The notes beneath the pieces were generated by a model. It was not told the DNA's origin. It made no database searches and was given only the letters and a program-made list of their open reading frames with translations. 64,000 nt of DNA from Lineus longissimus (taxonomy: Eukaryota > Nemertea > Pilidiophora > Heteronemertea > Lineidae). The position numbers were made by a program, and so were the translations under genes. Shown piece after piece: positions 27,480 through 63,770 of this stretch; within the stretch, counting starts at the first letter, position 1, and each line of letters opens with the position of its first letter. Location of the stretch: positions 10,008,953 through 10,072,952 of the forward strand of contig NC_088324.1 in NCBI RefSeq assembly GCF_910592395.1. Direction: 5' to 3'.

Positions 27480-30400
27480 CAGAAATTTCTCACACAGGGA
27501 AAAGAAAATCACATTTGTGGCAAAATATCATCAAATTTGATAATATCAAGTCCGAGATATCGCGGGATTGGAACGAAAATACCGGCATCGTATTTGTTTA
27601 CGTCCAAAGACATACTATGTCAAAATTCACGTAAAAATTCCCATGGCTTCACAGTTTTCCAGACATATGGTCAAAATGGCAAAAAAAGGACCAGAAAAGT
27701 TGAAATGTGGCCTTGGATCCAGGTTTAGAAAAAATGTTGATGTACACATTTGTATATGGGTTAAGCACATCTAAGGCCTGGTATGAGGTATTTTTAAAGT
27801 GGTCAGCATCTGCTAATGGTACAAGATATCGCGCTGAAAATTTATGACAGCTGAGATTGGGGCAAAAACTGATTTGTGTCAAAGTGATATTTTGATATCT
27901 TTGCTCGTTTAGCGATATATCGCCAAATGATATATTGGCCCTCTCATGAAAATTACGAGCATTTTCAAAATATTTTCAAATACCATCAGTCAGTTTTAGT
28001 CCCAATCTTAGCTGTCCTGAAATTTCAGCCTGATATCTTGAATCATAAGCGGATGCTGACCACTTTAAAAATACCTCATACCAGGCCTTAGATGTACTTA
28101 ACCCATATACACATGTGTACATCAACATTTTTCTAAACCTGGAACCAAGGCCACATTTCAAATTCTCTGGTTCTTTTTTGCCATTTTTGACCATATGTCT
28201 AGAAAACTGTGAAGCCATTGGAATTTTTACATGAATTTTGGCATAGTATGTCTTTGGACGTAGACAAATATGATGCTAGTACTTTCGTTCCAATTCCGCA
28301 ATATCTTGGACTTGATATTATCAAATTTGATGATATTTTGCCACAAAAGTGATTTTCTTTACCCTGTGTGAGAAATTCTTCCAAAAGGAACATGTACAAT
28401 AAACCTCCCTTAGCGGGTGCCTCTCTAATAAGGACACCCTGGCTATTGAGAACACTAGTTTTGGTCTAAAATTGGTTATTGCCATAGAGAAGTTTCTCAC
28501 TGTACCCCTTAAACAAAGTATTTTGGCCTCAGCATGGACCAAAAGTCTACTTGGCGGTGATGAAAATTGAAACCCCAGAAATTTCTCACACTGGGTAAAG
28601 AAAATCCCATTTTTGGCAGAATATCATCAAATTTGATAATATCAAGTCCAAGATATCGCGGGATTGGAACGAAAGTCCTGGCATCCTATTTGTTAACGTC
28701 CAAAGACATACTATACCAAAATTCACGTAAAAATTCCCATGGCTTCACAGTTTTCCAGACATATGGTCAAAATGGCAAAAAAAGGACCAGAAAAGTTGAA
28801 ATGTGGCCTTGGATCCAGGTTTAGAAAAAATGTTACTGTACACATTTGTATATGGGTTAAGCACATCTAAGGCCTGGTATGAGGTATTTTTAAAGTGGTC
28901 AGCATCTGCTAATGGTACAAGATATCGCGCTGAAAATTTATGACAGCTGAGATTGGGGCAAAAACTGATTTGTGTCAAAGTGATATTTTGATATCTTTGC
29001 TCGTTTAGCGATATATCGCCAAATGATATATTGGCCCTCTCATGAAAATTACGAGCATTTTCAAAATATTTTCAAATACCATCAATCAGTTTTAGTCCCA
29101 ATCTTAGCTGTCCTGAAATTTCAGCGTGATATCTTGAATCGTAAGCGGATGCTGACCACTTTAAAAATACCTCATACCAGGCCTTAGATGTACTTAACCC
29201 ATATACACATGTGTACATCAACATTTTCCTAAACCTGGAACCAAGGCCACATTTCAAATTCTCTGGTTCTTTTTTGCCATTTTTGACCATATGTCTAGAA
29301 AACTGTGAAGCCATGGGAATTTTTACGTGAATTTTGGCATAGTATGTCTTTGGACGTAAACAAATTTGATGCTAGTACTTGTTCCAATCCCGCGATATCT
29401 TGGACTTGATATTATCAAACTTGATGATATTTTTCCACAAAAGTGATTTTCTTTACCCTGTGTGAGAAATTCTTCCAAAAGGAACATGTACAATAAACCT
29501 CCCTTAGCGGGTGCCTCTCTAATAAGGACACCCTGGCTATTGAGAACACTAGTTTTGGTCTAAAATTGGTTATTGCCATAGAGAGGTTTCTCACTGTACC
29601 CCTTAAACAAAGTATTTTGGCCTCAGCATGGACCAAAAGTCTACTTGGCGACGATGAAAATTGAAACACCAGAAATTTCTCACACTGGGTAAAGGAAATC
29701 CCATTTTTGGCAAAATATCATCAAATTTGATAATATCAAGTCCAAGATATCGCGGGATTGGAACGAAAGTCCTGGCATTCTATTTGTTTACGTCCAAAGA
29801 CATACTATGCCAAAATTCACGTGAAAATTTCCATGGCTTCACAGTTTTCCATACATATGGTCAAAATGGCAAAAAAAGGACCAGAAAAGTTGAAATGTGG
29901 CCTTGGATCCAGGTTTAGAAAAAATGTTACTGTACACATTTGTATATGGGTTAAGCACATCTAAGGCCTGGTATGAGGTATTTTTAAAGTGGTCAGCATC
30001 TGCTAATGGTACAAGATATCGCGCTGAAAATATATGACAGCTGAGATTTGGGCAAAAACTGATTTGTGTCAAAGTGATATTTTGATATCTTTGCTCGTTT
30101 AGCGATATATCGCCAAATGATATATTGGCCCTCTCATGAAAATTACAAGCATTTTCAAAATATTTTCAAATACCATCAATCACTTTTAGTCCCAATCTTA
30201 GCTGTCCTGAAATTTCAGCGTGATATCTTGAATCATAAGCGGATGCTGACCACTTTAAAAATACCTCATACCAGGCCTTAGATGTACTTAACCCATATAC
30301 AAATGTGTACATCAACATTTTTCTAAACCTGGAACCAAGGCCACATTTCAAATTCTCTGGTTCTTTTTTGCCATTTTTGACCATATGTCTAGAAAACTGT

Positions 30401-30571
30401 GAAGCCATGGGAATTTTTACATGAATTTTGGCATAGTATATCTTTGGACGTAGACAAATATGATGCTAGTACTTTCGTTCCAATTCCGCGATATCTTGGA
30501 CTTGATATTATCAAATTTGATGATATTTTGCCACAAAAGTGATTTTCTTTACCCTGTGTGAGAAATTCCTC
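27480..30571. repeat. Tandem array of three ~1.09-kb giant palindromes
   Basis: Three units start near 27480, 28576 and 29670 (periods ~1096 and ~1094 bp). Each has a ~395-bp 5' arm, a ~115-bp loop and a ~390-bp 3' arm that is its reverse complement. Unit 1 has arm 27480-27875, loop 27876-27989 and arm 27990-28380. Units 2 and 3 end near 29475 and 30570. The arms share GATATCGCGGGATTGG, AGACATATGGTCAAAATGG and TTAAAGTGGTCAGCAT with their complements. Spacers of ~195 bp (28381-28575 and 29476-29669) hold CTCTCTAATAAGGACAC sequence. Open frames in both arms mirror one another and look noncoding. Confidence 0.93.
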
Positions 30572-34702: not shown

Positions 34703-37700
34703 TCATGAACGGCGCATGGCTGTCTTCATACTCTGGAAAAGACGAAACAGAAGTTTGAGGATTCAAAAAAACAAACATTTCTATTAAACTCCTGAACTAG
34801 GCAGATTAAATATCGATGCAAGAACCCCATGATTATAGCTGGCAGCTTATGTGCAACTGTAAATGAATTTTCGACGATGGGGCACCAGGCTTCAACTTTT
34901 GTTTAATCAATTCCAACGACTCTATGACATCCTATGTTGGACAGTTATTTGGGTAAGACTAGAACAAAAATTGGTCATGTTCTGGTTCGTTAACGAGCAT
35001 GCGCAGAAAGCCAGAGCAATGAACGAACTGAATATGTATGCACCGAACAATGTTATTGATTAGAAGTTTGAATGATATTACAGGAGAATGATTTCTCACC
35101 TTGGAAATATCCACGCCGGTCATGGCCTGAACAACTTTAGGCATCCTCTCAATAATGTCCATCACTTCACCAGTAAGCTTGGATGCTCCAACTGAGCCGC
35201 TACCGTTGGATACCATGGTCACCTTCTTGCACTCGGCCAATGGCGCAGAAACTTCTGCGGCAATCTGAAGGAGGAAGGAGGTTCAAATTTACAAAATACT
35301 CAATCCTAATTTTGAAAAGCAATTGGGTAGCAGACATTTGATAAATATCTGTAGACGGAGCAGCGAGGCATGTACCTGTTCAGGGCCCATGCATGCGCTG
35401 ACAACGCCTACTGCTGATGACGTCAATGATGTTACCCGTACAAAATCACACAGCCAGCAAATTGACAAGTCTGCATCATTGGTTAGGTTTTTTTATGTTT
35501 GAATATCCGAACTTATGGGGTCTACAGATACGCTCACTTTAAATCCTTGGATAGGAACCCAACGTATACATGGAAGAGCTCATCTTCACTCACCTTGGGT
35601 AGGGTTTCCAGAATCATGTCGACCATGGCAGCGTCCTGGTAGTCCTTCCAGGCATCAGCCTTCTTGGCCATCTGTTCAGCTTCAGCCTTGGCTTTCTGTG
35701 TGATGGCAAACGCCTCTGCATCTCCCTTCACCTGCAGGATTGAAATACGTCATTACAACATTACACAATAACATCTAACTTTGTTAGTGTATACCAAGCC
35801 AAATTTATCGCTAGCAGGCCAAGGGTGCTAAATTCATTAAGCCTCATGTCCTCAACTTTATCTTTCATGTTTCCAAACAAGGCCTCATTCTTCTCAAGTC
35901 ACCCTTCTCTACGGACTCTAGACACTCTTGTAATCACTCTTCTTAAGTCACTCTTCTCTAGTCACTCTTCACTAGTCACTCTTCTCTAGTCACTCTTCTC
36001 TAGTCACTCTTCTCTAGTCACTCTTCTCTAGTCACTCTTCTCTAGTCACTCTTCTCTAGTCACTCTTCTCTCATCAATCTTTTCCAGTCATTCTTCACAA
36101 GTCAGTCTTCTCCACTTCTTCTATAAAACTTTTTAAAGCCATATGCGTACTGAAATGATCGCCGGTACAGGGATAACAGAATTAGGATATATGGCCCATT
36201 TTTAACATACCTTGACAGCTTCAGCATCTGCCTCCGCCTCTAGAATGATACGATTCCTGGAATAGGACAGAGAGGATTACATTTCGAATCAGATTTTTTT
36301 TAAAAACACAGAAATGAACTTGCCAGCTTCCTGCATTAAACATTTCAGGGAATTCAGAATTAGGTTCCTCTGTTTGATAATATGTATTGAAAAGTTGAAA
36401 CTTTTTTTCTCAACATTTTATGAATGCTACGACATCCACACCACCTACCTGTCGGCCTCAGCCAATTTTTCCAGCTTGTATTTTTCAGCCTCGGCTGGTT
36501 TCTTGATCATGGCGTCTAATTCACGATCCTTTCGTGTGATCTCCTGCTCCTGGACCAGAATTTGTTGCGAACGCTCGACGACCTTAATCTGCATCTGTTC
36601 CTCTTTGATCTTCTGTTTGGTCTTGGCGGCCTGGACGAGGAAAATAATAATAATTTACCACTGTGGGGAGATGAAACTAATCAAGAAGGTGACGCCATTA
36701 TATTCTTCTTATGTTCGTGTTTGATGTATGCAGGATTGTTTTTGTCATGATGTTCATACCTGTGTGGTACCTCGTGTGTGACTTTTGAGCACACAACCTT
36801 TTGCCTAGGTTGCATAGATGATTGACCACGAGCTGTGTAACCTAACGTAGCTTGTGCGGCACCAGAGTTTAGGTTGTGCGCTTATCAACAGAGAGTGAGA
36901 CCGTACCATTCTGAGCAGAAGACATGAAGCAAATCATGATGGGAAGCTCTACTTTATAGACTTTGATAAAAATTTGCCACAAAGCTAGAGATTGGTAATG
37001 TTTTTACCTGTAAATCATAAGAAAGCTCAGACTTTGCCTTCTCTGTCTGTACTTCCATGTCGTAAGCTGCCTTCTTCAGTTCAAAGTCTCTCTGGGCCTT
37101 TGCGATCTGGATATCGTTGGAGAATCTAGAGGCCATGCGCTGCTCTTCTGCAATTGCTTCCTGAAAATTTCAAGGAAACATAAGCCTGGGTATTCAACCA
37201 TTAAACTTTTTTAACGATAGAGAATCAAAACACCAGATTGTTGGCCAGGCTCCCCTGCCACCACAATAGTGACACCTACCTTGATTCCAGCATCCCTCCT
37301 CGCCTCCGCCTCACCAATCCTGGCATCCCTCTTCACCTGGGCTGTACGGGCCATACCGAGGGACTTGAGGTAACCTTCGTCGTCACGGATGTCCTTCAGC
37401 GTGTAACTGACTACGCTGATGCCCATGTTCACCAAGTCGGAGGAAGCGACTTCGAACACCGCCTTGGAGAATTTCTTCCTGTCTTTGTAGATTTCCTGAA
37501 ATCACAGGTAAACATGTTGTAACTTTGCGTTAGCACCAACTGACATCATTTACGAGGAAGCAGACTTTTGATAAAAGAGAACTATGCTCAAACATAACCA
37601 GATTGATAAATTTTTCTAGTCTTCACCAAAACATGTTTCCAATGATTGCCCTCTTGTGCAAGCCTTCTGATCTCCCTCTCCCCGGCCTCCCAGAATTGCC

Positions 37701-40700
37701 CAGAACTACTGACAGGCTGTGGCCAACACAGTTCTGACCCTGGCGATAGGCCCAGGTCAGTTTAAAATACTGATCATTCTCATAACCTAACAGTAATAAG
37801 TCATTACCTCTACAGTCATGTTCCCCATGATAGCCCTCTGGTGACCCTCGAGTGTCTCTTGGGCGATCTTCCTGATCTCACCCTCAGACTTGCCAAGGAA
37901 CTGCTGGCAGGCTGTCGCTAACATCTCTTGGTTCTGACCCTGAATCTTCACCTAGGATGAAAAGTTGTACATCAGAAACCATGACACTATCAAAGAGGAG
38001 CAAGAGATCATAACCAGATTCTTAGAAACTTTGGATTTTTGAAAAATCATCGGATTTCATTTTGTGATGCGATGGCATTCATAGTCATATTACTTCAAGT
38101 TTAGAAACAGCAAATAAACCACAATCCAGGAAGACTTTATGCATCTGGTTTTTATATCACACAATTCGAAGTCAAATCTAAGCAAAATGCTAAGGCAAAC
38201 GTAAGCATTATATTACACCATGATGCAATGTTTTCATCATAATGCTATTAAGATCAGACAATCGGAAGAACATAAAATATATGATTAAGAAGCGAGACAG
38301 AAACATAACCAAGCTTTTACCAGGGTGTGCTTTAGTGACAGTGATATTTCAGTTTGAGAGTAGGAGCTGGCCCATTGGACAAGCAATTTTTTCATTTGCA
38401 ATCAAGATAGCACTTCGCTTGATAAAATCACTTCTCTGTGGTACACTCTTATACTGAACAGAAAATGTCTTTTTCTTCTCGACACCAGACCTTGGGCCTC
38501 CTATTGTTCACTTCAGTAATATTACAAAAATCACTGTCAGGAGAAGCAACATCTGGTTGAGAACTCAAATCGTCATTTCAATAAGTGCCACCACATCATA
38601 ATTCACTATTGCCAAAGCCCCTGGGTCCTAGACAGTGAAACGTGAACAGTACACTGCCAAATCTACGCAATGCTTTTTCAAAAGTTAAGGGATTTGCACT
38701 CAATTGAAAGATGTTTTTCACTATTAGCACAAGGAATTTTCAACATCAAGTTTTGAAAAATACCAAAAAGAGGGTTCGTTTGGACCCTGACTCCCCCTTG
38801 GCCTATGTGTCTTAATTGTTTTTGATTTCCAATAAAATCTATTTTCCAATCAAAAATGTTTCACAAACCAAGGTTTTTAGCGAAAATATAACACCCTGCG
38901 AAAATTTGGCAGTTCTAAGCATCGGACAAAGTATAATGGTGACATGCAGACGACAACAGGTGCCAGGGACCAGGATCTGGAAAAGCACAACAGATATTAT
39001 TCTACTTGAACAGCTACACTACCAACAACCAGCGACCACTGGTGTCCACCAGCTTCTAGTGAGGTTTAAACATCAAAAAAACATCCAATTGTCATTAAAC
39101 AAAATAGGCAGGCCGTTGGACAAATTTCATGACAAATGCGTCCCCCAGCCCATCTTTGATTCAACTTGGAAGAGATGAGAAAGCTGCCCAAGCTTCTGAA
39201 CACTTTGAGATTTTAGAACAACCCATCTTCCGCCCAAATGTCGTGACATTTTCATTTTCGTTTGTTACTGCTAAATTTTCTTTTGATGACCTTAAACCTG
39301 ACTGAATGCTATTGGAAGCCAGAAGACGCTGTTTAGGATGACCATCTAGAAGAGAAAGTACAAGAGAGACAGAGAGAATGTGTGTGAATATGCTGTGGTA
39401 AGAATACTTTTAAAGACGTGGTTCATTTGTCCACATTTTAGAATTTTAGTCAGGCAAGATACTTAAAATACACACAAAATCTCAATCCCTCAGTTTTCAA
39501 GCAACAAAAGAAAACACTGTGGAAACTAACAAATTTTTGTGGCCGTTTTTTTATTTTTCGCGGATTTCTCAGATAACTGAGAAAAGTAAAAATTGCGAAA
39601 AATATATTTGATAGGAAAAAACTAGTAATTTCGTAATCCGCCAAAATAGAAATAGCAAAATTTTTACTTTTTTTCAGAAAATTTCGCGAATCACAAAAAT
39701 AAAAGGTGTGAAAACTTTGTGGTTTACTGTAGTTGGCAAACTAAAGTGGCATGAAAGTAAAACACATTTGTACAAAAAACTAAGTGAAACTAAACAAGAG
39801 AGCAATGATAAACCAGCCGCCACTCTCATCAGGGATATTGGGGGCAATCAGCAAGCAATGACAGGGCAAGAGCTAGGATATATGGCCTGAACCAGACCCT
39901 TGAATAGAGAGATTGATTGTTGTCCTTGAGACACAAACTTCTTCCAACATAAAACAAACGCCTTCAGGACTGCCAGGATGATCAACCACTGGGCGGTTAG
40001 CCAGTTGCCGTTAAAGCCGATATATGAAATATCAATTCTTATATTCTACCTTAGTAGCAATATCGGTTTTTAAGAAATAGGGAATGGAGCAAAAGGTTGC
40101 ATCGCTATATCAATGAACCGACTGAACCAATAGATAAAGAACGACCTCCGTGACCAATTACTGAGTCAACACCTATCGAACCTCAACTTTCACAAGATGA
40201 ATACCACCAAGCAGTCCTCTTGGGCCAAGAGACTTCATGGTTGACAGGCCCAAGAACCGCAAGAAGACTCTATCTCCAAATCTCGCTTCACAATTGAAGA
40301 ATCAAACAAACAGACATCAACTTTACAAGCACACAGACAACTACAAATATACCATGAAACTTTGCTGATCATTCATACTAACAATAATGGGGGAGGGGTG
40401 TCTTAAAACAGGAGGAACCATGAAAAGCTATACGAACTGAGGGAACACACCACTTGCCATTTTCGTGCAAAGCTGAATATCAGTGCCACACAGAACCAAA
40501 ATATTGGTTGCGATGCAACACTCGATTTTTTTCATCCCAGAATCGTGATATTTTGGCAACATGTGGTGCGGCTGTTTTTAAAAACCCAGCAAAAATGGCA
40601 AGCTGTGCATTTTTCAGGAGGGATGCTTGCAGCAACCTTGCATAATTCCTGCGACCTAAAAACAATGTGCACAGTGTTTCAGACTATTCTCTGAGTAGAA

Positions 40701-43700
40701 AGAGACTTGTCTGTACAGGGAATTAGGGCAGAGATGTAATTATGGCGTTGAATAGGGACTCACCGGTGACAAGCAAGGCCAGACATCAATCCTCACAACG
40801 GAAAGAAATTTGCAGTGGGATTCTCAAACAAAGGAGCATTCATGAAATGACCTCCCCTCGCAGGATTTGACCCGTCACCGAAGCTGAACTGTATTGCAAA
40901 CACACAGAGATGTCTTTGGAAATGTCTAAATTTGCATACTGCTGGAGTGACCTATATTCAAATGCGGCACAATACCGAACAGGGATTGCATTCCAGCAGA
41001 ACAAGAATATAAGCTGCATGAGAACTAGCATCGCCCTACACACCATTGCGAGTTCTTCTTGTGACATTCACTCCTTGAGCACCGCAGTTGGTTCTCACAG
41101 TGCATCAGCTAAATCTAGTGTTATGGTAATCTTCATTAGTTAGCAACCTGGATGAGTCATACATGAACACTGCCACGGTCCCTGCCTTTAAAAAAACTCA
41201 CATCTCCAAAGGATCAGCAATTGCATAGAATAAAGGTTAGCTTCACCAGACCTCAGATAGCCCATCACAGACTCACTCAAATGCAACCAATTTGCACCAC
41301 ATTTGTTCCAGCAATCACGAACATCGGTCAAATCCTGCAGGTTCTGAGTCAACTGAAATCTGACATACACCACAATGCATTCTACACAACAGCAGCTCTC
41401 CAACAGTTAAAGTATCAAGGGATTGGGTTCTCAAGAATTTGCCAGCTTTTTTATTGAGCATCAACCTTACCATCAACAGCGGCATCCTGACCCATGCATG
41501 CCAGGACCCATCTTTTCCATAAACCACTTGTGTGACATATTCAATTCATCATGCTTTTAAAGAAATACATCAATTTCTTAGCAACCAAAATTAAGAACAC
41601 CGCCATTCAAAATACAGGTTGTTTTGAGATCTCTACAACCCGAGGGATGGACTCATTGGACATTTGGAGAGTCAGACTGCAAGTGAATCAAATACCCAAC
41701 AGCCAAGACACTTTCAGTTTCAAGCTCTACTTGTCTGTTTGATGAAATAAATAAATACACACAAACTAGACTAAAACTCAAAATATTTTGTCCAGAAGTT
41801 GGAGAGCCACAGATACAACCAATTGTTGCTAGGCAACCACAACTTGTTGTCACTAGGCAACAGACAGAAAGCCTAGTAACTAGATAGTTTATGCTAGTCA
41901 CCAGGCGACATTACCTAGCAACCCGAGTGATTTGCCTAACAACCAAGCACTCTTACCTGAGCGACCCCAATAACAGAAATGGGGACACCAAGTTGTGTAG
42001 TCACATGAAAACTTTCAATTGTCAAAGTCATGGTGTTCAGTTCTATCCTAGAAATACATAGAATATCAAGAATTGAACACCATCCCTACTTTCAGACCTC
42101 ATATCTCGTATCATTCAATTCCACCCACTCTTCAGCTGGAATATCATACATTCTCACCTCAATATGCAACAACTGAGGAAGACGTCACATAGCTTTTATT
42201 AAGTATCATCTCCAAGGTGCAGTGATTGCTCAAATAAATGGTGGGTATCAGAAATAAACATTGGGACAGAGACCAATGACCTGAGAGCCTCAGCCACTGA
42301 CCTATTGGACACATGATACTGCCACATACCCTAAAATTGCCCGACAAATTGAAGGCTAAAGACACCACCATTTAACAGAGCACACGCAGTAATCCTTTCT
42401 CATTATGTACCATGCAATTATCATGATTATTTATAAAGTAAAAGAAAGATCTGTTGTCCACCATCATCACTTGAGTCCACATAGTCAAGATGGTCAAGCT
42501 GAAATTCAAAGAAACTTGTCAGATATGGTTTCAGATGGCTCAGTTACCTTTTCAGACACTGTCTGTTAATACGTCATGCAATCAGCTATACTTTAAAAGG
42601 GAGGTGTCCTGATTACAGAGGTCAAATTGCATGAAAATAACTAATTTGAGATCAGCGTTCTGAAGAGTGTGGGTGTACTACTTACAAAAGGGAGGCTCTA
42701 GTCATAGACACCTTTTGGTAACTAGAACTCTGGTACAGCACCAGAGACAGATAATAAAGGGGGGAATAGTTTTATGGAGGGGGCATCCCGCAAAAGACCA
42801 TACCCCCTCATTAGTCAGTGAGGATGTTACTTCATTAGCAAGAGGGGAAAGATGTGCACAGTGTTCTTCACAAAGAGGAAATTATATCCCTGATTATTTT
42901 TATTAATCGTTCACACTCCCAGTCTTACCTGAGCAACCCCTTGGACAGTAATGGCAACACCATGACACGTATTCACATTTTCACTCACGATATTCAATGT
43001 CAGAACATTTAGAGTAAGCCTGAAGACAGATTCAATAGCATGAGATATATGGGGGAGAGGCTATTTCAAATCCGTTGAGGGACATCAATGGACATTGTAT
43101 AAGGTTACTAGCGTAGCAATGCCAGGTAAGTCAGTGTACTGAGCAGAGACGTTTTAAAATCTGAAATAAAGTAAGAATGTCTTAAGTTAAAATCATGCTC
43201 AAAGTCAGATCTGAATGACTTAACAGCAGTCGCTCAGCAGTAATGAACTTGAGACCTGTTGCTGCAAATTCACTTGATAACTTCAAATGTCTTTTCTGCA
43301 ATACACTAAGTACTGAAACCGCCAAAATTTCACACCATTTTAGAAATGAAATGAAAAAATGAAAATGAAAGAAAAGAAGAAATGAAATGAATAAATTCGC
43401 TATTTTTATTTCTGGTGGAGAGCAAATTGCTTTCGACCAATTACTTTTGTTTTTTCTCAATCAACATTGTTTTTTTGTTGTTGCAATTTTCGATCATTTA
43501 ATCCGCAAACATTTGGCAGTTTCCAGTAGCGAACCTGCAATACTAGAAAGCCAATTGGTTATTACTATTTTGCACAACGAAACTCAACTGTAAGGTGTGG
43601 CCGTGGGTTAAAGGAGGTGAAGGACTGGTACACTTCCTCTACCTGGCACAGTAAACAAGGCACACAAGACTCAAATTGAACAAAGACCTTCCAAGGCCAG

Positions 43701-46700
43701 AGTGGCTCTGAAATGGGTGCCCTGATATTTCTCAATTCAAGGTCTCAGGGTGGTCCTTTAGGATACAGGTTGCCAAAAATGAGACTGATTTTGGGATGAA
43801 GGAGATAAGTCAGATGCGGGATGAAAACAGTTTGCCATTAGGCCACAGACCACAAGGCGGCAGACCAAGGGAGGAGCAAGGTCCAGTAAGTGAGGACGAG
43901 CAGTTACCAGACCTTCCCCTCATTTCAAACCTTTCCAAATGTCCGTCGAGAGCAAAAATGTCACGGAATTTTCAGGACTGACCCTCAACTGAGGGTACCC
44001 CTGGGTCGAGTGGCTCGGCTAAATGCACCTGGAAAGCATTACTTTACCCTTACCTGTGCTACCCCCTGGACGGATATTGCCACGCCATGCGAGGTATTCA
44101 CATTTACACTTTCAATTGCCAGTGTCATTACATTAAGGGAGAGCCTGCAGATGAGAAAAAACGGGAATTGAATATCGAAACGACAGCCTGAAACAAATTG
44201 ACTTGAAGTAAGGAAAAGAACTGTATTATTAGTTATGGGGAAAAGAGGTAATTACCAATTAGTACAGGCTCACAAACGCATGCCTTTAATTTGCTTTCAG
44301 TCACGTCTCATGAACTGGACAACAATCTCAGTCACAGCTTATGATACCAAGTCCAAGACTCAGAAGCACCTCCAGAATACATCTCGACACACAAGATGAC
44401 TGATGACACCAACATCTCTCCAACCTCTCAGCAAAGCACTGCCTATCAGCGTGGGGTATGAACTTATTGGGGCAGGATGTCAAAATATCAAGGCAATACC
44501 ATCATGTCACAACCAAAACACAGAATTTACAAATAAGAAACCACCCAAATACCACTCGTTCTCAAAAAACGTGTTAACGTTGAAAGCATTTTTGCTATAT
44601 TTTCAACTTACGGTAAAATTGCATGGCTACATGTAGGGGTGACTACGCACAACATCAACCAGCAACTTTCTGTTGGTGTTTATTAACTATTTCAGAGTAA
44701 CATTTTAAGACTAACTAGGACCTAACTAACCAAGGGCTACCGTAGCGCAAAGTAAAACAGTTTGTCATTGTTACCCACATAAGTTTGGACACTAATGACA
44801 GAGCCTTTCCCATTTTTATTGCAAGCCATCGTTAAATCAAATATCCAGTGACTAGACGAAACAAATCTCGAGGGGAGTAAGCCGAGACAAAAAGCATTAG
44901 TGCTCAGAATGTGGGGACAACCACTATTACACAGATTCCTCAAATAAGTGCCACAGAGAAAATGAAAACACGCTAAGGACAGATGCAACCAAAAACTAGT
45001 GAAATGTGGATCCATTGACCTTACCTGTGCTGTACCACGGACGGAGATGGCAACGCCGCGTGCTGAGTATACATTGGGCGTTTCAATGGGCAAAGTGAAT
45101 GTGTTCAAAGTTAGCCTAAATAAAAAGTGCCGGCTGGATTTTAGTATCAAGTCAATTAAAAATATTAAGAATTAAGCCTGAATTCTTCAAAAAAGAAACA
45201 TTTTGATATTTGTCTGTGAAGCTTTTTCTCTGAAAGAACTGATAGGCTGGTAGTTGTTAGCAAAATGGAAAGCACTGGATCACTGCAAAATATCATTTCA
45301 AGATTTGGAACATTGAGGGGTTCAAAATCACCCTTATACTCTCAGAATAATAGACATGTAATGTTCTTCCACAGAAACAAGGCATGCACCCCAGGGAAAA
45401 AATGCATCCAGCTCCAGAGCTCGACATCATTCTTTTGCACTCCATGCTTCAAACCTGCGAATGATAAATGTCAACGTTATTTACATGAAATGGAACGGTC
45501 AAGCATGTCGCAAAGGAGAGATTATGATCACCGCAATCTGACATAGATAGCTTATCTGTGGCTAAAACCGGTCATCGCTGGGGTTGCAACAATTCATGAT
45601 GGATTCTTGTCGCAAGCACCTGCAATGATCACCCCAAACGAGAGACTTTGTCACACGCGGTTGCTGCAGCAAAACCTCTCCTGTTCAAACAGCAATAATT
45701 ATTGCAATAGCCAAACCAATAAAAAGTTATATCATAATTCTGTTCAGTGGCTGAGGCTCTTACCTGTGCGACTCCCAAAACACTAATGGCGACTCCGAGG
45801 GCGGTTGTGACATTAACACTGTCAATATTCAGGGTCATAACATTCAGCGTTAGCCTAGATAAAGAGAACATTACAGCCATGAACCGTGAACCAAAACCGT
45901 GGTGGGGAAGGGCGGCCTGATACCAGCAAGGGGAGAACCTGGGGCACCTTGTCTGGAAATGTAGCGGCTGGTACGCTTGGTGTGATTCACTGCTTGCCAT
46001 CACTGGTGAAAGAGGCCTTGTAGCAACATGAAAAGTACAATCGATCGTTCACATTTTTATTCGGAGTAGCTTTTTTTCGACTATGCAAAAAATCAGAAGA
46101 GTCCATTTGAAAAATAGCAGCAGCCAGTATTTCTCAAAATACTTTAATCAAGAATCAATCATGGTAGAGGACTTTTGATATACATGTTTCCATGTCACAT
46201 TGGATCTTGAGAGACATGATTGGTTCACCATGATTGATTAACATTAAAACTGACCTCTTCATGAGCCCTGAAAGGTTCATGTACGTGAGTGACTGCGCCC
46301 CCTATAGGACTGGACACTACCTCACTGAGAAAACACTGCTTAACTATAATAACCAAGTGGAGAGAAAACAATGAACCACACCATCAAAATGCATGACAAA
46401 GTTGACAAGAAATAAACACTAGGAACACCTAGAATTACATTGAATGTGGAAGGTTTCTTGAAGCCAATTTTGAAGGGAAAACTTAAATTACCCTGAATTT
46501 AACGATCACCCCATAACGGAGACATTTATCTATTTATACCTTTTCACTTTTGAATATAATACATGTATGAATTGCATATTTCAGGAGAAAAACAGTATTA
46601 TTTTTGTCACTTCCATTTCTATATTGTATGAGTTGATTTCACAGAAGACTGACACCAATGATGATGTTGAGAATGTTTTGCTTACTATATATAAAATCAA

Positions 46701-48475
46701 AAGCCTCCCTTCCGTGTTCAACTTTTCTAGATGTTCCAGAATTAGTTAATGCACTACTACTGTTCAAGCATAGTAATGTGAACGATGCAACCAGCAACAA
46801 TGCTACCATCTTCTTACCTGTGCCACTCCGTGAACGGAGATTGCTACACCGAGTTGGGTGTAAACATTGAGACTCTCTATCGTCAATGTTAAAGTATTGA
46901 GAGATATCCTAAACAAAAACATGACCATGAGATTTAGAAACTTTTATGTAAAATAATAGGTTTGCCTGAAGTAATGAAATGTACATTGCATGACATTTGG
47001 TACACGTAGTCAACTAGGATCCCGCCATCTGCCTGGATGCGACCAGCTGGAGACATTATTATCAGGACAAACAACGTAAGAGGCAGGGCTCTTTTAAAGT
47101 GTAAAACTTGGCCCAGGCCGCCCAATTTCGCAAAAAACTGTTACAGGACTCTTGAGAATTCTACATGTAGCTCATGCCCTGAAGAGACAAGGGTCATGCC
47201 AAGCACTGTACACTTTCAAAATTGAATGTCAACCCGAGTAGAGTCGACCAGCCTGATGAGTGTACCGGGGTATGTTAATTACATGAGTGCGGGTAAGTTT
47301 AGATCCATCTATTTGCTTTGGCTACACTCGCAACATCAGCCAAGTGATTATTGTACAGTCACTTCTTCCTCCTAGAAAACGAAGCTGAAAAATATTGCTC
47401 TGGAAAGAAAAGTTACAACAAACAAGAAGTTCATCATCTGATAAATCAAATGAATTTCAAAAGCTCTAAGACAGGCATTGTTTTTATCTTAATCAGTGAG
47501 ACTGCTGACAATCTAATAAGATTACACCATACCAGGTAATAATGTATCAACTTGATGTCATTTTGTTTTTAGGACAAGTGACTTGCTTCACATCCAAAAG
47601 TGCTGAAGATAACATCAACATTTATCTGAATGTACTCGACTAAACTCACCTCTGTAGTTTCTGTATTCCAGGCCAGACAAACACTCGTCCACCAGGCACA
47701 AGTAACGGCTTATTGTGACAACAACCTAGACAGAAAAGATTTAACATCAATGTGATAACTAATACATGTACATCATCCAGTTAATCAAAACTGTTTTTGT
47801 TGATCTTTCCTCAGTCTGCTTAGTTAGTACTTACAGACACCTTTGTCAATTCTTTTTCCAGTCCCAACTCTGATCCAAGTTCGATAAGGAAACAGCCTGC
47901 AACGAACTGCAACAACGCTGTCTTCCCGGGAAATGGCATGAAATTGAAAGGGGCGGGGCACTAGAATTTACGTAACATTACGTGTATATTGTATTGCCAC
48001 GTCGTGAGAAGACTGTGCGTTATATCACCACTTTTAATGAAAGAGATTTAACGTCATGATGTAAATGGTGATCGCAGAAGAAGAGAAGTTGCGCCTCTGA
48101 TCAAGGTGGATCATGGACATGGTTTGGCCTAGGACGGACTAGGTTATGGAATTTGACTGGCCAGGCCCTGCGGCCCAGTATTTTGCCAGGTCCATAAAAC
48201 TCTCACAGTATAACAATTTTCCAGAACTTTCTCCTCAAACCACTCTCCGCCATCAGGAGTAAGTACGCCTGGGTGTGCAAATGTACAGGGAAGTTGTATG
48301 CATGCGCATAATGCATGATATGTGGTGTGTCAACAAACATCTAACAACGAAAATATACCCCCAGATCACTTTGATCGAAGTATTGTATTCGATGAAGTTG
48401 CATCATATAGATTCTTAAATACTAACCCGACACAACCATGGCTTCATTAGGGCCACAGGTTTCGAAAAACACCAT
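34703..48475 (-). CDS. FLOT1: Flotillin-1, with a six-fold alternative exon cluster
   Basis: Flotillin-1 is a membrane-microdomain scaffold that hetero-oligomerises with flotillin-2. Constant exons (minus): 48475-48427, 47725-47650, then one of six alternative exons, then 37951-37808, 37495-37280, 37160-37008, 36630-36449, 36256-36211, 35731-35594, 35264-35100 and 34732-34703. With any one alternative exon the product is 429 residues; human has 427. The start [17 protein letters not shown] is diagnostic and fixes ATG 48475. The SPFH domain includes [20 protein letters not shown]. The C-terminal half is the alanine/glutamate-rich coiled coil ([32 protein letters not shown]), followed by [16 protein letters not shown]. 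The first donor is GTTAGT. The position of the palmitoylated Cys34 of mammals is glycine here (VFVWPGIQ), but two adjacent cysteines sit at 18-19. Confidence 0.96.
35892..36115. repeat. 14-bp minisatellite in a FLOT1 intron
   Basis: About a dozen copies of CTAGTCACTCTTCT or close variants run in tandem, perfect in the centre (about 35960-36070) and degenerate at both ends. The array lies between two FLOT1 exons, 36211-36256 and 35594-35731. Confidence 0.85.
37632..37750 (-). pseudogene. Decayed duplicate of the FLOT1 exon that follows the cassettes
   Basis: Minus-strand sequence matches the active exon 37951-37808 in order: the GGGTCAGAAC block, TTGGCCACAGCCTGTCAG, AGATCAGAAGGCTTGCACAAGAG and AAACATG. 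The frame contains an in-line TAG after the ACQ-equivalent position and several indels, and clean splice sites are not kept. It is a nonfunctional tandem copy. Confidence 0.75.
37952..41956 (-). other. 4-kb FLOT1 intron between the cassettes and the constant exon
   Basis: Scanned on the minus strand for further cassette copies (CTNAAT...GTNGCNCAG then GTAAG) and none was seen. No ORF here has coding character. It is the natural place for RNA elements controlling cassette choice, but none was identified. Confidence 0.55.
41957..42047 (-). other. FLOT1 alternative exon, cassette 6 (most 3')
   Basis: A 91-nt exon between TTTCTAG and GTAAGAG. It encodes [14 protein letters not shown] followed by [16 protein letters not shown]. 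It is one of only two cassettes starting with Ile and the only one with Pro in GVPIS, as in human flotillin-1. The frame is intact. Confidence 0.92.
42929..43019 (-). other. FLOT1 alternative exon, cassette 5
   Basis: A 91-nt exon between CTTCAG and GTAAGAC. It encodes [14 protein letters not shown] followed by [16 protein letters not shown]. It is most like cassette 4 in its second half and carries a unique cysteine. The frame is intact. Confidence 0.92.
44054..44144 (-). other. FLOT1 alternative exon, cassette 4
   Basis: A 91-nt exon between CTGCAG and GTAAGG. It encodes [14 protein letters not shown] followed by [16 protein letters not shown]. The frame and both splice sites are intact. 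Confidence 0.92.
45025..45115 (-). other. FLOT1 alternative exon, cassette 3
   Basis: A 91-nt exon between TTTAG and GTAAGG. It encodes [14 protein letters not shown] followed by [16 protein letters not shown]. It is the most divergent cassette, with two prolines and two arginines not seen in the others. The frame is intact. Confidence 0.92.
45764..45854 (-). other. FLOT1 alternative exon, cassette 2
   Basis: A 91-nt exon between ATCTAG and GTAAGAG. It encodes [14 protein letters not shown] followed by [16 protein letters not shown]. The frame and both splice sites are intact. Confidence 0.92.
46818..46908 (-). other. FLOT1 alternative exon, cassette 1 (most 5')
   Basis: A 91-nt exon between TGTTTAG and GTAAGAAG. 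It encodes [14 protein letters not shown] followed by [16 protein letters not shown]. Its first eight residues are the same as in human flotillin-1. It lies closest to the upstream constant exon 47725-47650. The frame is intact. Confidence 0.92.
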
Positions 48476-50464
48476 CTTTGCGGTCGAAAATTAGGCCCAA
48501 CCCAAGAAATAATATCCTGCCAATGTAAAAGATGGCCGATGCAATACACATAAATAGCTCCGAACCCAGGAGGCTTCTCGTGTAGAATGCTAGTGTACTT
48601 GAGTGCACATTGCAAGCGTTGGGAAAAGGTCTGATTGATCCAATTGATATTCGTGACGTCATGAACATTTTAGTTGAAAGAAATTCCGCCGTGTGGCGAT
48701 AAATAAACTGGGGATTCCCCAATAATTTCTAGGAAACAAAACTCAGAAATGTCAACAATAAGTTTCAAGTTAGCTTGGAATGGATTCGCTGAATCCTTGG
48801 CAGATTCGGATAAACTTCTGCCATTTCGATTTTTGCCATTTCTGCAACGCAGTTCTCATCTACCAGCTGAAGTTTTGAGTGTGGTAAAGTAATATTTTAC
48901 AATCAATATTTTAATTTTTAGTGGCAAAGGCCAGTCCTTTGTTATTTTCATTTGTCATTTTCCTTTGATGAATATTCTTCATCAATCATGCTTTCTGTTC
49001 CCGTGCATTTTCAGATTTTGATTTTCAGACTGAGCCAACTATCATTCAGCAATCTCTCTAGGCCTACTATCAGCTCATAAGGTATCTTGTTCAATATCAA
49101 ACCAAGCCATATAATCCGATCAAGACTGCAACTCAACCAGACCACATCAGAGACGGCATCTCAACCAGACCACATCAGAGAGACCACATTAGAGACGACA
49201 TCTCAACCAGACCACATCAGAGACGGCAACTCAACCAGACCACATCAGAGACGACATCTCAACCAGAACACATCAGAGACGACATCTCAACCAGAACACA
49301 TCAGAGACAGCATCTCAACCAGACCACATCAGAGACGACGTCTCAACCAGAACAAATCAGAGGCGGCAACTCAACCAGACCACATCAGAGACGACGTCTC
49401 AACAAGAACAAATCAGAGACGACAGCTCAACCAGACCACATCAGAGACGACATCTCAACCTGAACATATCAGAGACAGCATCTCAACCAGACAACATCAG
49501 AGACGGCAACTCAACCAGACCACATCAGAGACAGCATCTCAACCAGACCACATCAGAGACGACATCTCAACCAGACAACATCAGAGACGACAGCTCAACC
49601 AGACAACATCAGAGACGACATCTCAACCAGACCACATCAGAGACGACAGCTCAACCAGACAACATCAGAGACGGCAACTCAACCAGACCACATCAGAGAC
49701 GACATCTCAACCAGAACACATCAGAGACGGCATCTTAACTAGACTACATCAGAGACAGCATCTAAACTAGACCACATCAGAGACAGCATCTCAACCAGTC
49801 CACATCAGAGGCAGCATCTAAACTAGACCACATCAGAGACAGCATCTCAACCAGTCCACATCAGAGACAGCATCTCAACCAGACCACATCAGAGACAGCA
49901 TCTCATCTAGACCACATCAAGGACAGTATCTCAACCAGTCAACATCAGATGCAGCATCTAAACTAGACCACATCAGAGAGGGTGTCTCAGCGCGACCACA
50001 CGAGAGGCAGCTTATATGATCAGCCATATCAATTATCATACCAGAGCCAGCATCTTAACCAGATCACATCAAAGACAATATCACATCCAGTCCACATCCC
50101 AGATTTAAGGCTCTATATGCACTACTGTCTGTTTTGCTTAAACTTTTCTATTTTCAGGCTTAGCTTATGGTTACTGAATTACTGCCACTAGTGGCAAGAC
50201 CACGCCAACTCATCATATTTTACGGTTGACAGTATTCTGTCAAAAGTAAAAAATAGTGTATACTGCTCTACAGGTTACATGCTCTGGGGATGTCATTTTC
50301 TGCCCCTCTCTGCAGGTCGACGGTAGTGAAAGGGTTAAAAACACACAGCATATCAATCAAGAGTGAGCTTTGCTGTTCTCAAAATCTCTCTTTTGCCATT
50401 TCAGTACCACGAGTTCCACTCATTTGTATAACCACACAAACAGTGTTGCTAAAATAGTCGAGAA
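48476..50464. promoter_or_regulatory. Divergent region between FLOT1 and STAT start codons
   Basis: The two genes are head to head, about 2 kb apart. The FLOT1 promoter should lie in the non-repetitive part at about 48480-49080. The rest is largely occupied by the 28-bp minisatellite. A probable STAT 5' UTR exon starts after TTTCAG at about 50403. No TATA box was identified with confidence. Confidence 0.4.
49128..50100 (+). repeat. 28-bp minisatellite (~34 copies)
   Basis: Tandem copies of a 28-bp unit (CTCAACCAGACCACATCAGA plus GACGGCAT or variants) run for almost 1 kb, degenerating after about 49900. Because 28 is not a multiple of three, an open frame through it has an 84-bp (28-residue) super-period. 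The apparent 227-residue ORF at 49087-49770 is a by-product of the repeat and is not a gene. Confidence 0.93.
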
Positions 50465-59178: not shown

Positions 59179-62100
59179 TTATGTCTGGGTGTAAAGACTA
59201 GCTGCAAACACAATGTCTCGTTTTATTAATGTGGACGCCTCCTCCATCTTGGATTGTAGAACCGGATCGCCGATTATTTTGGCAGCTTTCCTGACGTCCC
59301 GCAGCATTTCATCGAGCCGTTGGATACACCGGACAATAATACCCTCTTGTACGTCGGGGACGAGGTTGGTGATGTCCGAAAATGGCTGAAAATACGATGA
59401 CGATGATAGAACTGTGATGTAAATATGTTTGGCATTCATGTTTTGCTTTGTTTTATTTTGTCAGACTTTCAATTGAACTGTGTTATTCACTACAGTCAAT
59501 CAGTAGCTTGTTCCCATCTCTGAGGCACTCCAAGGAGTGTCACATGAAATTTGACCAATAGACAAGTCCCATTACAGCTCAGTTCAAGACCGGGAGGATG
59601 GAACTTAACTGTAGGCCAACACCAGAGATGCTTCAGTTGAAGCCTTGGGGCAGAATTTGAGCCTCGCCTGACGGTTTCAATTCAGAACAGAGATCCAAAA
59701 TTTCGGTGTGCCTAATATTTAGGGAGTTGTCCACACGAAACACACCCAAAACTCTGCGGTCATGGCTTTGCTCCACTGAATCCAACAAAGCACGTGCTAC
59801 GTGATCACACTGTCTATACCTCAATCGAAAAATTGAGACCGCTGGCATGAAAACAAGGGTGTGTGTATTATTCATGCAACAGTGCAATCGAATGACTTAC
59901 CATTCCTCTTGACCACTCAAAAACAGCCTCTGTCAACCCAAACTTGAGCTGATCAACATATTCCCTCACCGGGATCTTCAGACCAGCATCCCTTTGGGCT
60001 ACACCGATATTCTCGGCTTGGGCGCATATCCGTTCTTTACCCTGAAGTTGAAAAATTAATATGGTCACCCTCAACTGACTTGACCTCAAAAATATATTGA
60101 AGAGGATCAGATTTCGAATCGTGAAGGAGAATGAGGTGGCATTTTGACAATGGATGTCGTGTTGCCTGTTGTAAAAAATGGATTGAAACTATGTGACTTT
60201 AATGTCAGGAATGCCCAGGAACAATTATACGAAACGATCAACTTAAATTGATGACATCATTTTCAAAGATTTCAGGGGAACGACTCATGAAAGTCCTTTC
60301 GTACCTTTTGCAAAGCGTCGGATAACTCTGGTTTCCCGCAGTTCTTCTGCTCAAACACCGTACATGATAATATTCCAGCTATTTCTGCGGGCTGTAGCCC
60401 ATTAAATGCATCATGGAAGAGTGATTCGGTTATCAAGAGTTCATGACTGTTGATCTCGCAGGCAACGCGACCTTTCAAGGTCACCGTGTTAGTGTCGTCA
60501 ATGTAGTTTAGGTCTCGTAGAACCTGAAGGGAGAAGATGATTTAAGTCAGCAAATGTTGAAAGCTCAAGTACATCATACAGTGGAACCTCGGTTGGAGAC
60601 CATCCTCGACGCATGAGGCAAATCCCACTGAATGAAATGGGAAAGAAAAATGGTGTAACAATTAACAGTTATGGTATCCAGTTTAACTTCTGCTGTTCTA
60701 ATATCTACCTGAATTCGTTGTTCGTATTCTGGTAGTAGCTGCAGACTATCATCCGATAGGAGATGTTTTATCAGCTTGTATTCCTCCTGGACCTGCATGT
60801 TATTTTTCATGTGATTGAACTGGAATAGATTAAGGAACAGGCAGTCAATATCAGCATTTGGGTCAATAAGGGAAATAAGGAAAGGTTAGGTAAGTGAGAT
60901 GAAACAGAACCCTTTGGGGACTCTTGACCCTCCCCACCCTGAGAAGGTAAACCATGTCAAGTGTTGACTTGACACAGGTGTCACTCTTGTACGAAACCAT
61001 CCTGATATGCAGTAGGCCAGTAGGTCTATAGTGCTTGTGGCCTAAACGAAACGGTGCAACTATTTTTCTGTTACCCAACTGCTCATCTAACAACGGTCAT
61101 GTAAACTGTGACTGTATACATGTCACAAACACAAGATAAATAGGAAAACTCTGATGTCTATCCCGGGGAGTATATGTGCGTAAAAGACCACCAAAGTTGG
61201 CAGGGTCCAGCCCTTGTGGCATGGCTAAAAATCAGGGCCTTACGCACCTACAACGAAAGGGTTGAGCGAAACAATTTCACAAGTAAGTACTCACATGTTC
61301 TGAAAATTTAGCACACTTGATACAGTTGAAGTTCTCAAAGAGGCCTTCTAGCACCTGTAGTTGTCTGAACTGTTCAACGAGTTCTATATCACGGATGCGC
61401 AGATCGTCGACAGCATCAAGACCTGGGAGACCAGTGGGATTGGACTCGGTCAGTTGTAGCAATTCCTGCGTGGCTGAACTTGTGGACGAGCCAGGTGGAT
61501 TGTCACTAAAAATATCCGCACAAAATTAAATTATTACTAGCAACATAAAAATGTTCAAATTACATACTTTTTTTATGTCATAGGTCCAGCAATATCGTTT
61601 TTTCTCTCTGGAGAATACATTTCTAGGAATGAATTGCCTTTTTTGTGAGTCATGATAAAGCTTTTCGAAGAGCAAAACCCCCCAACAACCAAGAAAACTT
61701 AGTTTGGATCTTGAACAAAATAATCCAGATGATCCATCTAAATGCTTATATAGTTCAATTAATACAACCATCAGCACTCACCGAAACCTAGGCAACTCTC
61801 TCTTCCGGACGTCATCAATTATCTTTTCAGCATTAATCTTGATCTGTTTTTTTGTTATCACACTGATATCATCTGCCCGGAGAATCTCAATCATTTGACC
61901 ACAAGCACAATCTTTGGGCAAGAAGAGTTCTGTAGATCCGAAGGGCTCCAGGCCATCCAGGTTTTTCTTGGTTTGTTTTGTGAAATTCGTAGCACCTCTC
62001 TCGCATAACACTGAAGGAGAGTACATGAAAACAAAATTACTATTTTAAAAATCAAAAGCCAAAAAACAAATGTTCCGTCTGATAACACATGACCTCTGGC

Positions 62101-63770
62101 AGGAAAAGCATCATCCTGGGTATCAATGATGCAGAAAAAACACAACTCACCTAAAGTTGCATAAGAGCGTTCATTGTTTGACCCTTGGCTGACCTTCAAA
62201 ATGACCCCAACGGCATTCTTGTGACTGTGGTTCTTGACGACTACAACCCTGCCAGCAGTCATGGCTTTCGTTGCCAAGGGATGTGAGAAGACAACTTTCT
62301 GAAAAGAATGAGGCAAGATTATTTCATAAGCATTATTGCCAGCAGTTCTGTGCCAATTGCATTTTAGCGGTTATTTTTTTGTAATATTTGGAGCAATAAG
62401 CATTCAAAATACCAACTAAACTTTATGTTGTGTTTGATTATCAAACAGCCCCTAGACTCGGCTGGAACACTAAAAAGGCTAGGATCCCTTGGAAAAAGCC
62501 TACTACTCCAAATCAGATCATATTGTCAACTACGTCCGAGTTTCAATTCAATTCAAATAATAATCTGTAATCTCTGTCTTGCAGTTACATGTATATTTAC
62601 CTGAAGTTTCTTCTTCAGCTTGTCATACTCGAAACAAGTACTGTAATAATTTTCTATATCTTCTGAACAAGTGAAACACTCCACTGGCTCCAACCTCGCC
62701 AATTTGCCCTTGAGTTCTTCCAATCGCTTTTTGTTTGTTTCAACATTTTGCTGCGCGGTTGTCTCGGAGAAACTCCTCTTCATCATGTCCTGTACCCGGA
62801 GTTTCTCAACTCGTAGCAGGTTCAGAATCATGGAGTAGGTCAGACGAAATTGTGATTCCAGCTTCGTCGGTTTGCCCTGAAAAACAATGCAATGCAATGA
62901 AATTGGAACAAAGCAGTGTATGGCTGGTTATTGGTTACCTGTTAAGGTCAACGGTGTCAGCCTGTTGGCCGAGGAGTATAGAAGTAAGAGTCCACTATGG
63001 GATACCGCTAAACATAACAGTTAGGACGGCCCACAGCCTATCATGATGACAAAAGCAAAATCTTGTCTTCTTGTTTTCATCATAGTGAGAGGACACCGCT
63101 ATCATTGTATGCAATACTGCAGTATTGATGATGAAAAGTACCAATTTTCAGATGAGTTAGAGCCTTTCCAACAAACAAAATATTTAGCAGTATTACTGTA
63201 GTAGTATTTCTTACCAACATCATGATGTGCAGCTCTGCGGTCTCAGGCACATCTCCCTTACACATGACAATAACTGTACCAGTCGTATCCAGTCCTCGCC
63301 GTCCAGCTCTCCCGGCCATCTGGATGTACTCGCCCGGCAGTAGGTTCCGGAAGCATGTGCCATCATGTTTCCGTATTGAGTCGAAGACCACTGTCCTTGC
63401 CGGCATGTTTACGCCGATGGCGAATGTTTCTGTGGCAAAGAGGACCTGAATAATAAAAGATAGTCAAAGTTTCATCCGAATCGCTGGATTTCAATACTCA
63501 TTGAAACTGGCTTTATGACTATGACTGAGATTGAAGAGCACACTGCTTAGCCTTGTGGTACCTACACGGTGACTTGCAAATTAAGGGATTTCCATAAGCA
63601 GAATTTGGAGACCTTTCCAATTACATTGACCACGTGAAAATGACAGTCGTTTTATTTACCTTGACGAGACCTTTCTGGAACAGCATTTCCACCATTTCTT
63701 TCATGATCGGTAAGATACCGCTGTGATGTTTCCCAATTCCTCGCTTTAACATACTCGTCATCTCAAGAAC
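59179..63770 (-). CDS. SKIC2: Ski2-type RNA helicase, SKI complex (N-terminal part outside the window)
   Basis: SKIC2 (SKIV2L) is the DExH helicase of the cytoplasmic SKI complex that feeds mRNA to the exosome. Exons (minus): 63770-63660, 63445-63215, 62876-62601, 62298-62151, 62010-61782, 61505-61295, 60819-60709, 60523-60305, 60041-59901 and 59385-59179, giving 627 C-terminal residues plus stop. Motif V is [19 protein letters not shown] and motif VI is [12 protein letters not shown]. They are followed by [16 protein letters not shown], the arch/KOW-type region with AGRVVVVKN, and the helical C-terminus ending in [14 protein letters not shown], the expected end of the family. [15 protein letters not shown] and the C-terminus favour Ski2 over Mtr4. 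The first RecA domain lies beyond 64000. No break was seen. Confidence 0.94.

Follow-up and report, generated by a model that had tools for sequence, protein, structure and literature searches.

The stretch of DNA analysed here (the window) comprises 64,000 nucleotides (nt) from the nemertean Lineus longissimus (contig NC_088324.1, positions 10,008,953 to 10,072,952). On its minus strand, from 48475 to 34703 (contig positions 10,043,655 to 10,057,427), a coding gene for flotillin-1 was modelled in which six alternative versions of one short exon, termed cassettes C1 to C6, lie in tandem between exons 2 and 4. A protein of 429 amino acids is obtained with any single cassette, and the products are identical outside the swapped segment whichever cassette is chosen. 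We consider it very likely, from the sequence evidence described below, that these are six functional, mutually exclusive exons within a single flotillin-1 gene. The parts of the modelled gene are as follows:

48427..48475, minus strand: coding part of exon 1 of flotillin-1, with the start codon at 48475 (product identical to P0001)
47650..47725, minus strand: exon 2, constitutive, ending in phase 2 (AG|G) and supplying the upstream donor common to the cassettes
46818..46908, minus strand: cassette C1, 91 nt, AG acceptor, GTAAG donor, open frame
45764..45854, minus strand: cassette C2, 91 nt, AG acceptor, GTAAG donor, carried by the annotated Lineus longissimus isoform X2
45025..45115, minus strand: cassette C3, 91 nt, AG acceptor, GTAAG donor, open frame
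44054..44144, minus strand: cassette C4, 91 nt, AG acceptor, GTAAG donor, open frame
42929..43019, minus strand: cassette C5, 91 nt, AG acceptor, GTAAG donor, open frame
41957..42047, minus strand: cassette C6, 91 nt, AG acceptor, GTAAG donor, open frame
37808..37951, minus strand: exon 4, constitutive, supplying the phase-0 downstream acceptor common to the cassettes
37280..37495, minus strand: exon 5, constitutive, single copy in Lineus; its end (residues 161-189) is variable among mollusc products
37008..37160, minus strand: exon 6, constitutive (gene model)
36449..36630, minus strand: exon 7, constitutive (gene model)
36211..36256, minus strand: exon 8, constitutive (gene model)
35594..35731, minus strand: exon 9, constitutive (gene model)
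35100..35264, minus strand: exon 10, constitutive (gene model)
34703..34732, minus strand: coding part of exon 11, containing the stop codon

The C1 product was found to align with human flotillin-1 (9l3g_A) over human residues 4-422 at 593.6 bits, compared with 363.3 bits for flotillin-2 (9l3g_a); judged by these scores, the gene is flotillin-1, being closer to flotillin-1 than to flotillin-2. The best database match, P0001 ('flotillin-1-like isoform X2 [Lineus longissimus]'), corresponds to the C2 product at every residue, and a Pfam scan of this protein detected an SPFH/Band 7 domain (Band_7, 83 bits) followed by a Flot domain (30.8 bits), both above the cut-off. The cluster at 90% identity to which P0001 belongs has six member sequences and one contig, a count that would fit six isoforms.

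The coordinates given in a preliminary description of this DNA for six minus-strand exons of 91 nt were confirmed to the base, as were the open frame, AG acceptor and GTAAG donor of all six. Its interpretation of the cassettes as versions of one 30-residue piece of the flotillin-1 SPFH domain was likewise borne out by the gene model, the protein matches and alignment, and the donor at 47650 and acceptor at 37951 that it had proposed to be shared are both correct in the gene model. Each cassette, read in the frame continued from exon 2, encodes one version of flotillin-1 residues 43-72. Pairwise identity among the cassettes ranged from 53 to 77% at the amino acid level and from 54 to 71% at the nucleotide level, and the introns between them measure 648-1034 nt. 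When the window was searched by tblastn with each cassette, the other five were recovered at E <= 6e-5 and nothing else was detected below E 0.04; a seventh cassette was not found in the window by these searches, in which decayed copies were sought as well. A Pfam scan of a lone cassette returned 0 families. The cassettes are (i) adjacent, (ii) 91 nt each, (iii) of the same phases, (iv) alike in sequence, and (v) contained in one gene, as is characteristic of tandem mutually exclusive exons.

The length of the cassettes bears directly on their exclusivity. Each consists of 30 codons plus 1 nt and is placed between phase-2 and phase-0 junctions, so that inclusion of zero or of two to six cassettes gives an early stop. 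When all 64 subsets of cassettes were translated in genomic order, the full protein was obtained in 6/6 singles and in 0/58 other combinations, with the first stop falling at codon 43 in the absence of a cassette and at codons 76-85 with two to six cassettes. The mutual exclusivity that had earlier been called apparent is supported by the frame, as well as by the swapping of the same segment in the gene models of other species, whose annotated products carry one version of the segment each. In the proposed mechanism, a single cassette out of C1-C6 would be spliced between exon 2 and exon 4, while mRNAs with zero or several cassettes would meet the early stop and yield no full protein. From general knowledge of nonsense-mediated decay, such mis-spliced mRNAs would probably be removed.

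An array of this type could also arise if the copies belonged to several flotillin genes or haplotypes and had been misjoined, making it an artefact of assembly or a set of separate genes. No point was found in favour of this explanation, and collapsed copies of separate genes, a possibility raised in the preliminary description, were looked for and gained no support. A search of the 391,118,348-base assembly with P0001 located one flotillin-1 exon set (contig C17) and one flotillin-2-like set (contig C2), with the corresponding exon of the latter present once in the surrounding 9.9 kb. A query consisting of C1 with its flanks found no cassettes elsewhere in the genome, its matches being the six reported here and flotillin-2 at E 0.99 (7/7 candidates scored). 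The introns of the array, searched for similarity to date the duplications, share only short matches (14-24 nt, with E values reaching 0.1), one of them direct (14 nt, E 0.08) and the others inverted. Given the single locus and the dissimilar introns, the six cassettes do not represent gene copies that were collapsed, nor were they duplicated recently by the assembly. The published assembly of Lineus longissimus (391 Mb) was, moreover, built on PacBio, 10X and Hi-C data, according to its report (PMC8593623). We therefore assign a negligible probability to an artefactual origin.

The position of the swapped segment in the protein was examined with an AlphaFold2 model of P0001, which had a mean predicted local distance difference test score (pLDDT) of 75 and a predicted template modelling score of 0.37. 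The blocks 41-50, 51-60 and 61-70 were modelled at pLDDT values of 82, 89 and 88, respectively, and the segment was found to cover the end of a strand (38-44) together with two strands, 48-58 and 64-75, that form a hairpin with a turn between them. Residues 43-72 of Lineus align without gaps with residues 41-70 of human flotillin-1, and residue 162 aligns with human Tyr160, the hinge tyrosine, the phosphorylation of which is discussed in the structure paper (PMC11260169). The same cryo-electron microscopy study describes a cage of 22 flotillin-1/flotillin-2 pairs (44 subunits) in which the SPFH1 domains penetrate one membrane leaflet. In terms of the predicted model, what is swapped is a single beta-hairpin within SPFH1, the domain that contacts the membrane, and each choice of cassette would exchange this hairpin (residues 43-72), which would probably tune lipid, partner or subunit contact. 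Among the six cassettes, residues 51, 55, 60 and 68 each occur as four or five different letters. We read this variation as probable tuning of one hairpin face, with loss of constraint as the alternative.

Three protein searches, yielding the best 120 of 4,582, 32 of 32 and the best 120 of 5,743 matches, provided 158 different proteins, and all pairs among these as well as 14 named sets were compared; because entries of the collection are grouped into clusters at 90% identity, isoforms can be hidden. Among the matches listed, residues 43-72 were found in three versions in Lingula, three in Mytilus californianus, two in M. trossulus, three in Sinanodonta, five in Haliotis rufescens, three in H. 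cracherodii and two in Bradybaena. Products of the same species agree outside this segment, save for two further swapped segments located in exon 2 and exon 5. The Lingula, Mytilus and Haliotis proteins carry isoform labels (M. coruscus excepted) and those of Sinanodonta share a locus tag; the Bradybaena proteins have three consecutive gene numbers and no isoform labels, and their assignment to one gene is our own reading. In Lingula anatina (X1-X6) and Haliotis rufescens (X1-X6, X8), the gene, the 30-residue segment and its borders are the same as in Lineus, with three and five versions, respectively, compared with the six of Lineus. In addition, Lingula swaps the exon-2 segment, of which two versions (P0002, P0003) combine with the three cassette versions to give all 2 x 3 forms as X1-X6, and Haliotis swaps a segment near the hinge, whereas Lineus has single copies of both. 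The exon-5 segment is swapped in Mytilus (californianus, trossulus, coruscus), Haliotis (two species), Biomphalaria, Littorina and Bradybaena, with Biomphalaria, Littorina and Mytilus coruscus differing at this segment only. It corresponds to residues 161-189 in the six pairs examined:

P0015/P0032, P0043/P0065, P0042/P0052, P0050/P0084, P0070/P0090, P0068/P0110: exon-5 segment pairs of mollusc flotillin-1, beside the hinge tyrosine

One version of the exon-5 segment carries K169 together with E173 in all six pairs, which hints at one origin of this swap within molluscs. Elsewhere, differences are spread over the full length of the protein in the pairs from Babylonia and Acanthaster, which were set aside as separate genes or models, the Centruroides pair differs near the C-terminus only, and the Ostrea set differs in length only, with no aligned position at variance. 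Among the matches listed, the swap test was passed by no pair from arthropods, cnidarians or deuterostomes, which is weak evidence of absence in those groups because the 90% clustering and the best-match lists may hide isoforms. The identical segment borders across three phyla suggest that the array is old. A tree of 37 cassettes (36 different) was also constructed, in which 3/33 inner branches were well supported and C2/C4/C5 grouped at 93/97. All six cassettes of Lineus came together as a single group in 0% of the 200 bootstrap trees, and no starred branch contradicts one origin; its 30 columns are too few for the cassette tree to separate shared from repeated duplication.

The sequence between exons 2 and 4 was further analysed for signals by which one cassette might be chosen. 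Steric hindrance and U2/U12 incompatibility were considered as causes of exclusivity, with minimal intron length and the U12 consensus as yardsticks, and simple forms of both found no support: introns of the length found between the cassettes speak against the former, and the GTAAG and AG at all cassette junctions speak against the latter. Two complementary stretches were identified:

45744..45760, minus strand: 17-nt stretch at the C2 donor (+4 to +20 of the intron that follows C2), complementary to 42284-42300
42284..42300, minus strand: 17-nt stretch lying upstream of C6, with its end 237 nt from that cassette; it complements the C2 donor stretch perfectly

Within the 9.7 kb that separate exon 2 from exon 4, no perfect inverted match is longer than this pairing (17 nt, versus a maximum of 15 nt in 60 dinucleotide shuffles). 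It would cover the C2 donor, which we take as a lead and not as proof. When 14 splice-site windows were compared with shuffled sequences, the C2 donor and C3 acceptor were found to pair better than 25/25 shuffles and the C6 donor better than 24/25, whereas pairing in the other 11/14 windows was not outstanding. Exclusivity in Dscam1 is achieved via a docking-site mechanism. A scan of 546 windows, in which each was set against the flanks of the six cassettes on the upstream and on the downstream side, revealed no clear docking site common to the six flanks; some windows reached z-scores of -4 to -5 (best -5.1 at 40230), as calculated from 12 mononucleotide shuffles each in 1,092 tests. RNA structure may thus mask single splice sites. 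A stronger version of this idea, in which exclusivity is owed mainly to competing RNA structures of the docking/selector type known from insect Dscam and the frame serves as back-up, is compatible with six mutually exclusive exons; the 17-nt complement and the three strongly pairing windows speak for it, while the 11 unremarkable windows and the lack of a clear shared docking site count against it, and we hold it as a tentative possibility. For the proposed array of six functional exons, our guess would be that individual splice sites are masked by pairing, as at C2, and that this sets the choice in combination with tissue factors.

Whether all six cassettes are functional was weighed from the sequence divergence among the copies. 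Ratios of nonsynonymous to synonymous substitution (dN/dS) of 0.05-0.39 were obtained for the 7/15 cassette pairs with unsaturated dS, while in the remaining 8/15 pairs dS was saturated and dN was at most 0.42; these values, from simple counting on 90 sites, are rough. They indicate that the cassettes arose long ago and that purifying selection acts on them. Tandem duplication also struck the neighbouring exon 4, judging from a broken copy beside it, and there it failed: a decayed tandem copy of exon 4 is located at 37632..37742 (minus strand), in the intron between exons 4 and 5, with a local alignment score of 43.5 (maximum 15.5 in 300 shuffles), several gaps and an in-frame stop. Apart from this copy, no extra copies of the other flotillin-1 exons were found in the window.

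Several observations weigh against six functional exons. Residue 58 is Y in 157/157 other proteins listed, yet T or N in C2, C4, C5 and C6; residue 68 is T in 151/157 of the others but H, L, R, Q, Q and I in C1-C6, although this position is also variable in the Mytilus cassettes (T, L, K). Such broken constant residues could mean relaxed constraint in some copies and not new function. In addition, the X-labelled RefSeq isoforms are computed models, and the scan described above brought out no docking site common to the six cassettes. It might accordingly be proposed that one or two cassettes are used and that the others are old duplicates that persist by chance, or poison exons reducing the flotillin-1 level. 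The decay of the exon-4 copy, which demonstrates that tandem exon copies do degenerate in this gene, and the loss of the constant tyrosine from 4/6 cassettes are in keeping with this proposal. Length, frame and splice sites have nonetheless been kept in all six cassettes in the face of synonymous sites near or at saturation, the dN/dS values in the computable pairs are low, an annotated isoform carries C2, and other phyla also swap this segment; limited use is, on balance, very unlikely. The retention of length, frame and splice sites by six old copies would be difficult to account for if not all, or almost all, of them were used, and we infer that all six cassettes are in use in Lineus.

Comparable arrangements are known from other proteins. 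Drosophila Dscam1 resembles flotillin-1 in having tandem copies of one exon with one used per mRNA, as described in PMC9013439 and PMC5740500, and it is combinatorial, as are Lingula and some mollusc flotillin-1; it differs in being a recognition receptor with far more versions, whereas flotillin-1 is a membrane scaffold for which the scan gave no clear docking site. The muscle myosin heavy chain of arthropods, a different protein, likewise swaps small structural elements within one gene (PMC2257972). Human flotillin-1 has one version of the segment in both solved structures, 9l3g and 9bq2, compared with six in Lineus. The main text of PMC5740500 includes neither 'flotillin' nor 'FLOT1', and no report of exon arrays in flotillin was found in the titles and abstract starts listed for flotillin with mutually exclusive exons, splicing, exon duplication or molluscs, with subscription papers outside this search. 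The preliminary description had suggested that a multi-cassette flotillin may be new; this stands insofar as no published report was found, but the arrangement is not unique to Lineus and is implicit in the RefSeq isoform models. As far as could be seen, the swapped isoforms are present in databases and apparently undescribed in print. A more far-reaching interpretation would make lophotrochozoan flotillin-1 a combinatorial scaffold, with arrays at the SPFH1 hairpin (nemerteans, brachiopods and molluscs), the preceding exon (Lingula) and the hinge tyrosine (molluscs) expressed as cell-type-specific mixtures; with 22 flotillin-1 subunits per cage, mixed cages would then give many membrane-patch identities, and this membrane-domain counterpart of Dscam diversity would trace to the ancestor that these phyla share. 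We regard this interpretation as a whole as unlikely.

Other features of the window were also recorded. Near or within the flotillin-1 gene are a 28-bp minisatellite of ~29 copies just upstream of it (49119-50000), in which more than one phase contains long open frames, and a 14-bp minisatellite of ~14 copies (35916-36112) in the intron between exons 8 and 9. Close to flotillin-1, parts of an RNA helicase of the MTR4/SKI2-like type were detected (61891-63463, minus strand); human FLOT1 and SKIV2L both lie in the major histocompatibility complex region, which makes an old flotillin-1/helicase linkage possible. Elsewhere in the window are roughly three tandem copies of a ~1.1-kb repeat unit with near-identical open frames of 99-108 amino acids (27649-30465, minus strand), a match to the C-terminus of Polycomb-like MTF2 (23936-24724, plus strand), a methyltransferase domain match (15767-16060, minus strand), and a weak, below-cut-off match to CATSPER beta (2752-3171, plus strand).

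Flotillins usually serve as raft markers that are assumed not to vary. The exon array is well supported; it lies in an unexpected host gene and has a wide, hidden distribution, and exon-swapped flotillin-1 looks like an old, largely unstudied source of scaffold diversity. If this holds true in the worm, brachiopods and molluscs, the natural variants would allow a test of cargo and lipid sorting by flotillin cages, with the cassettes serving as ready-made hairpin swaps already tolerated by evolution.

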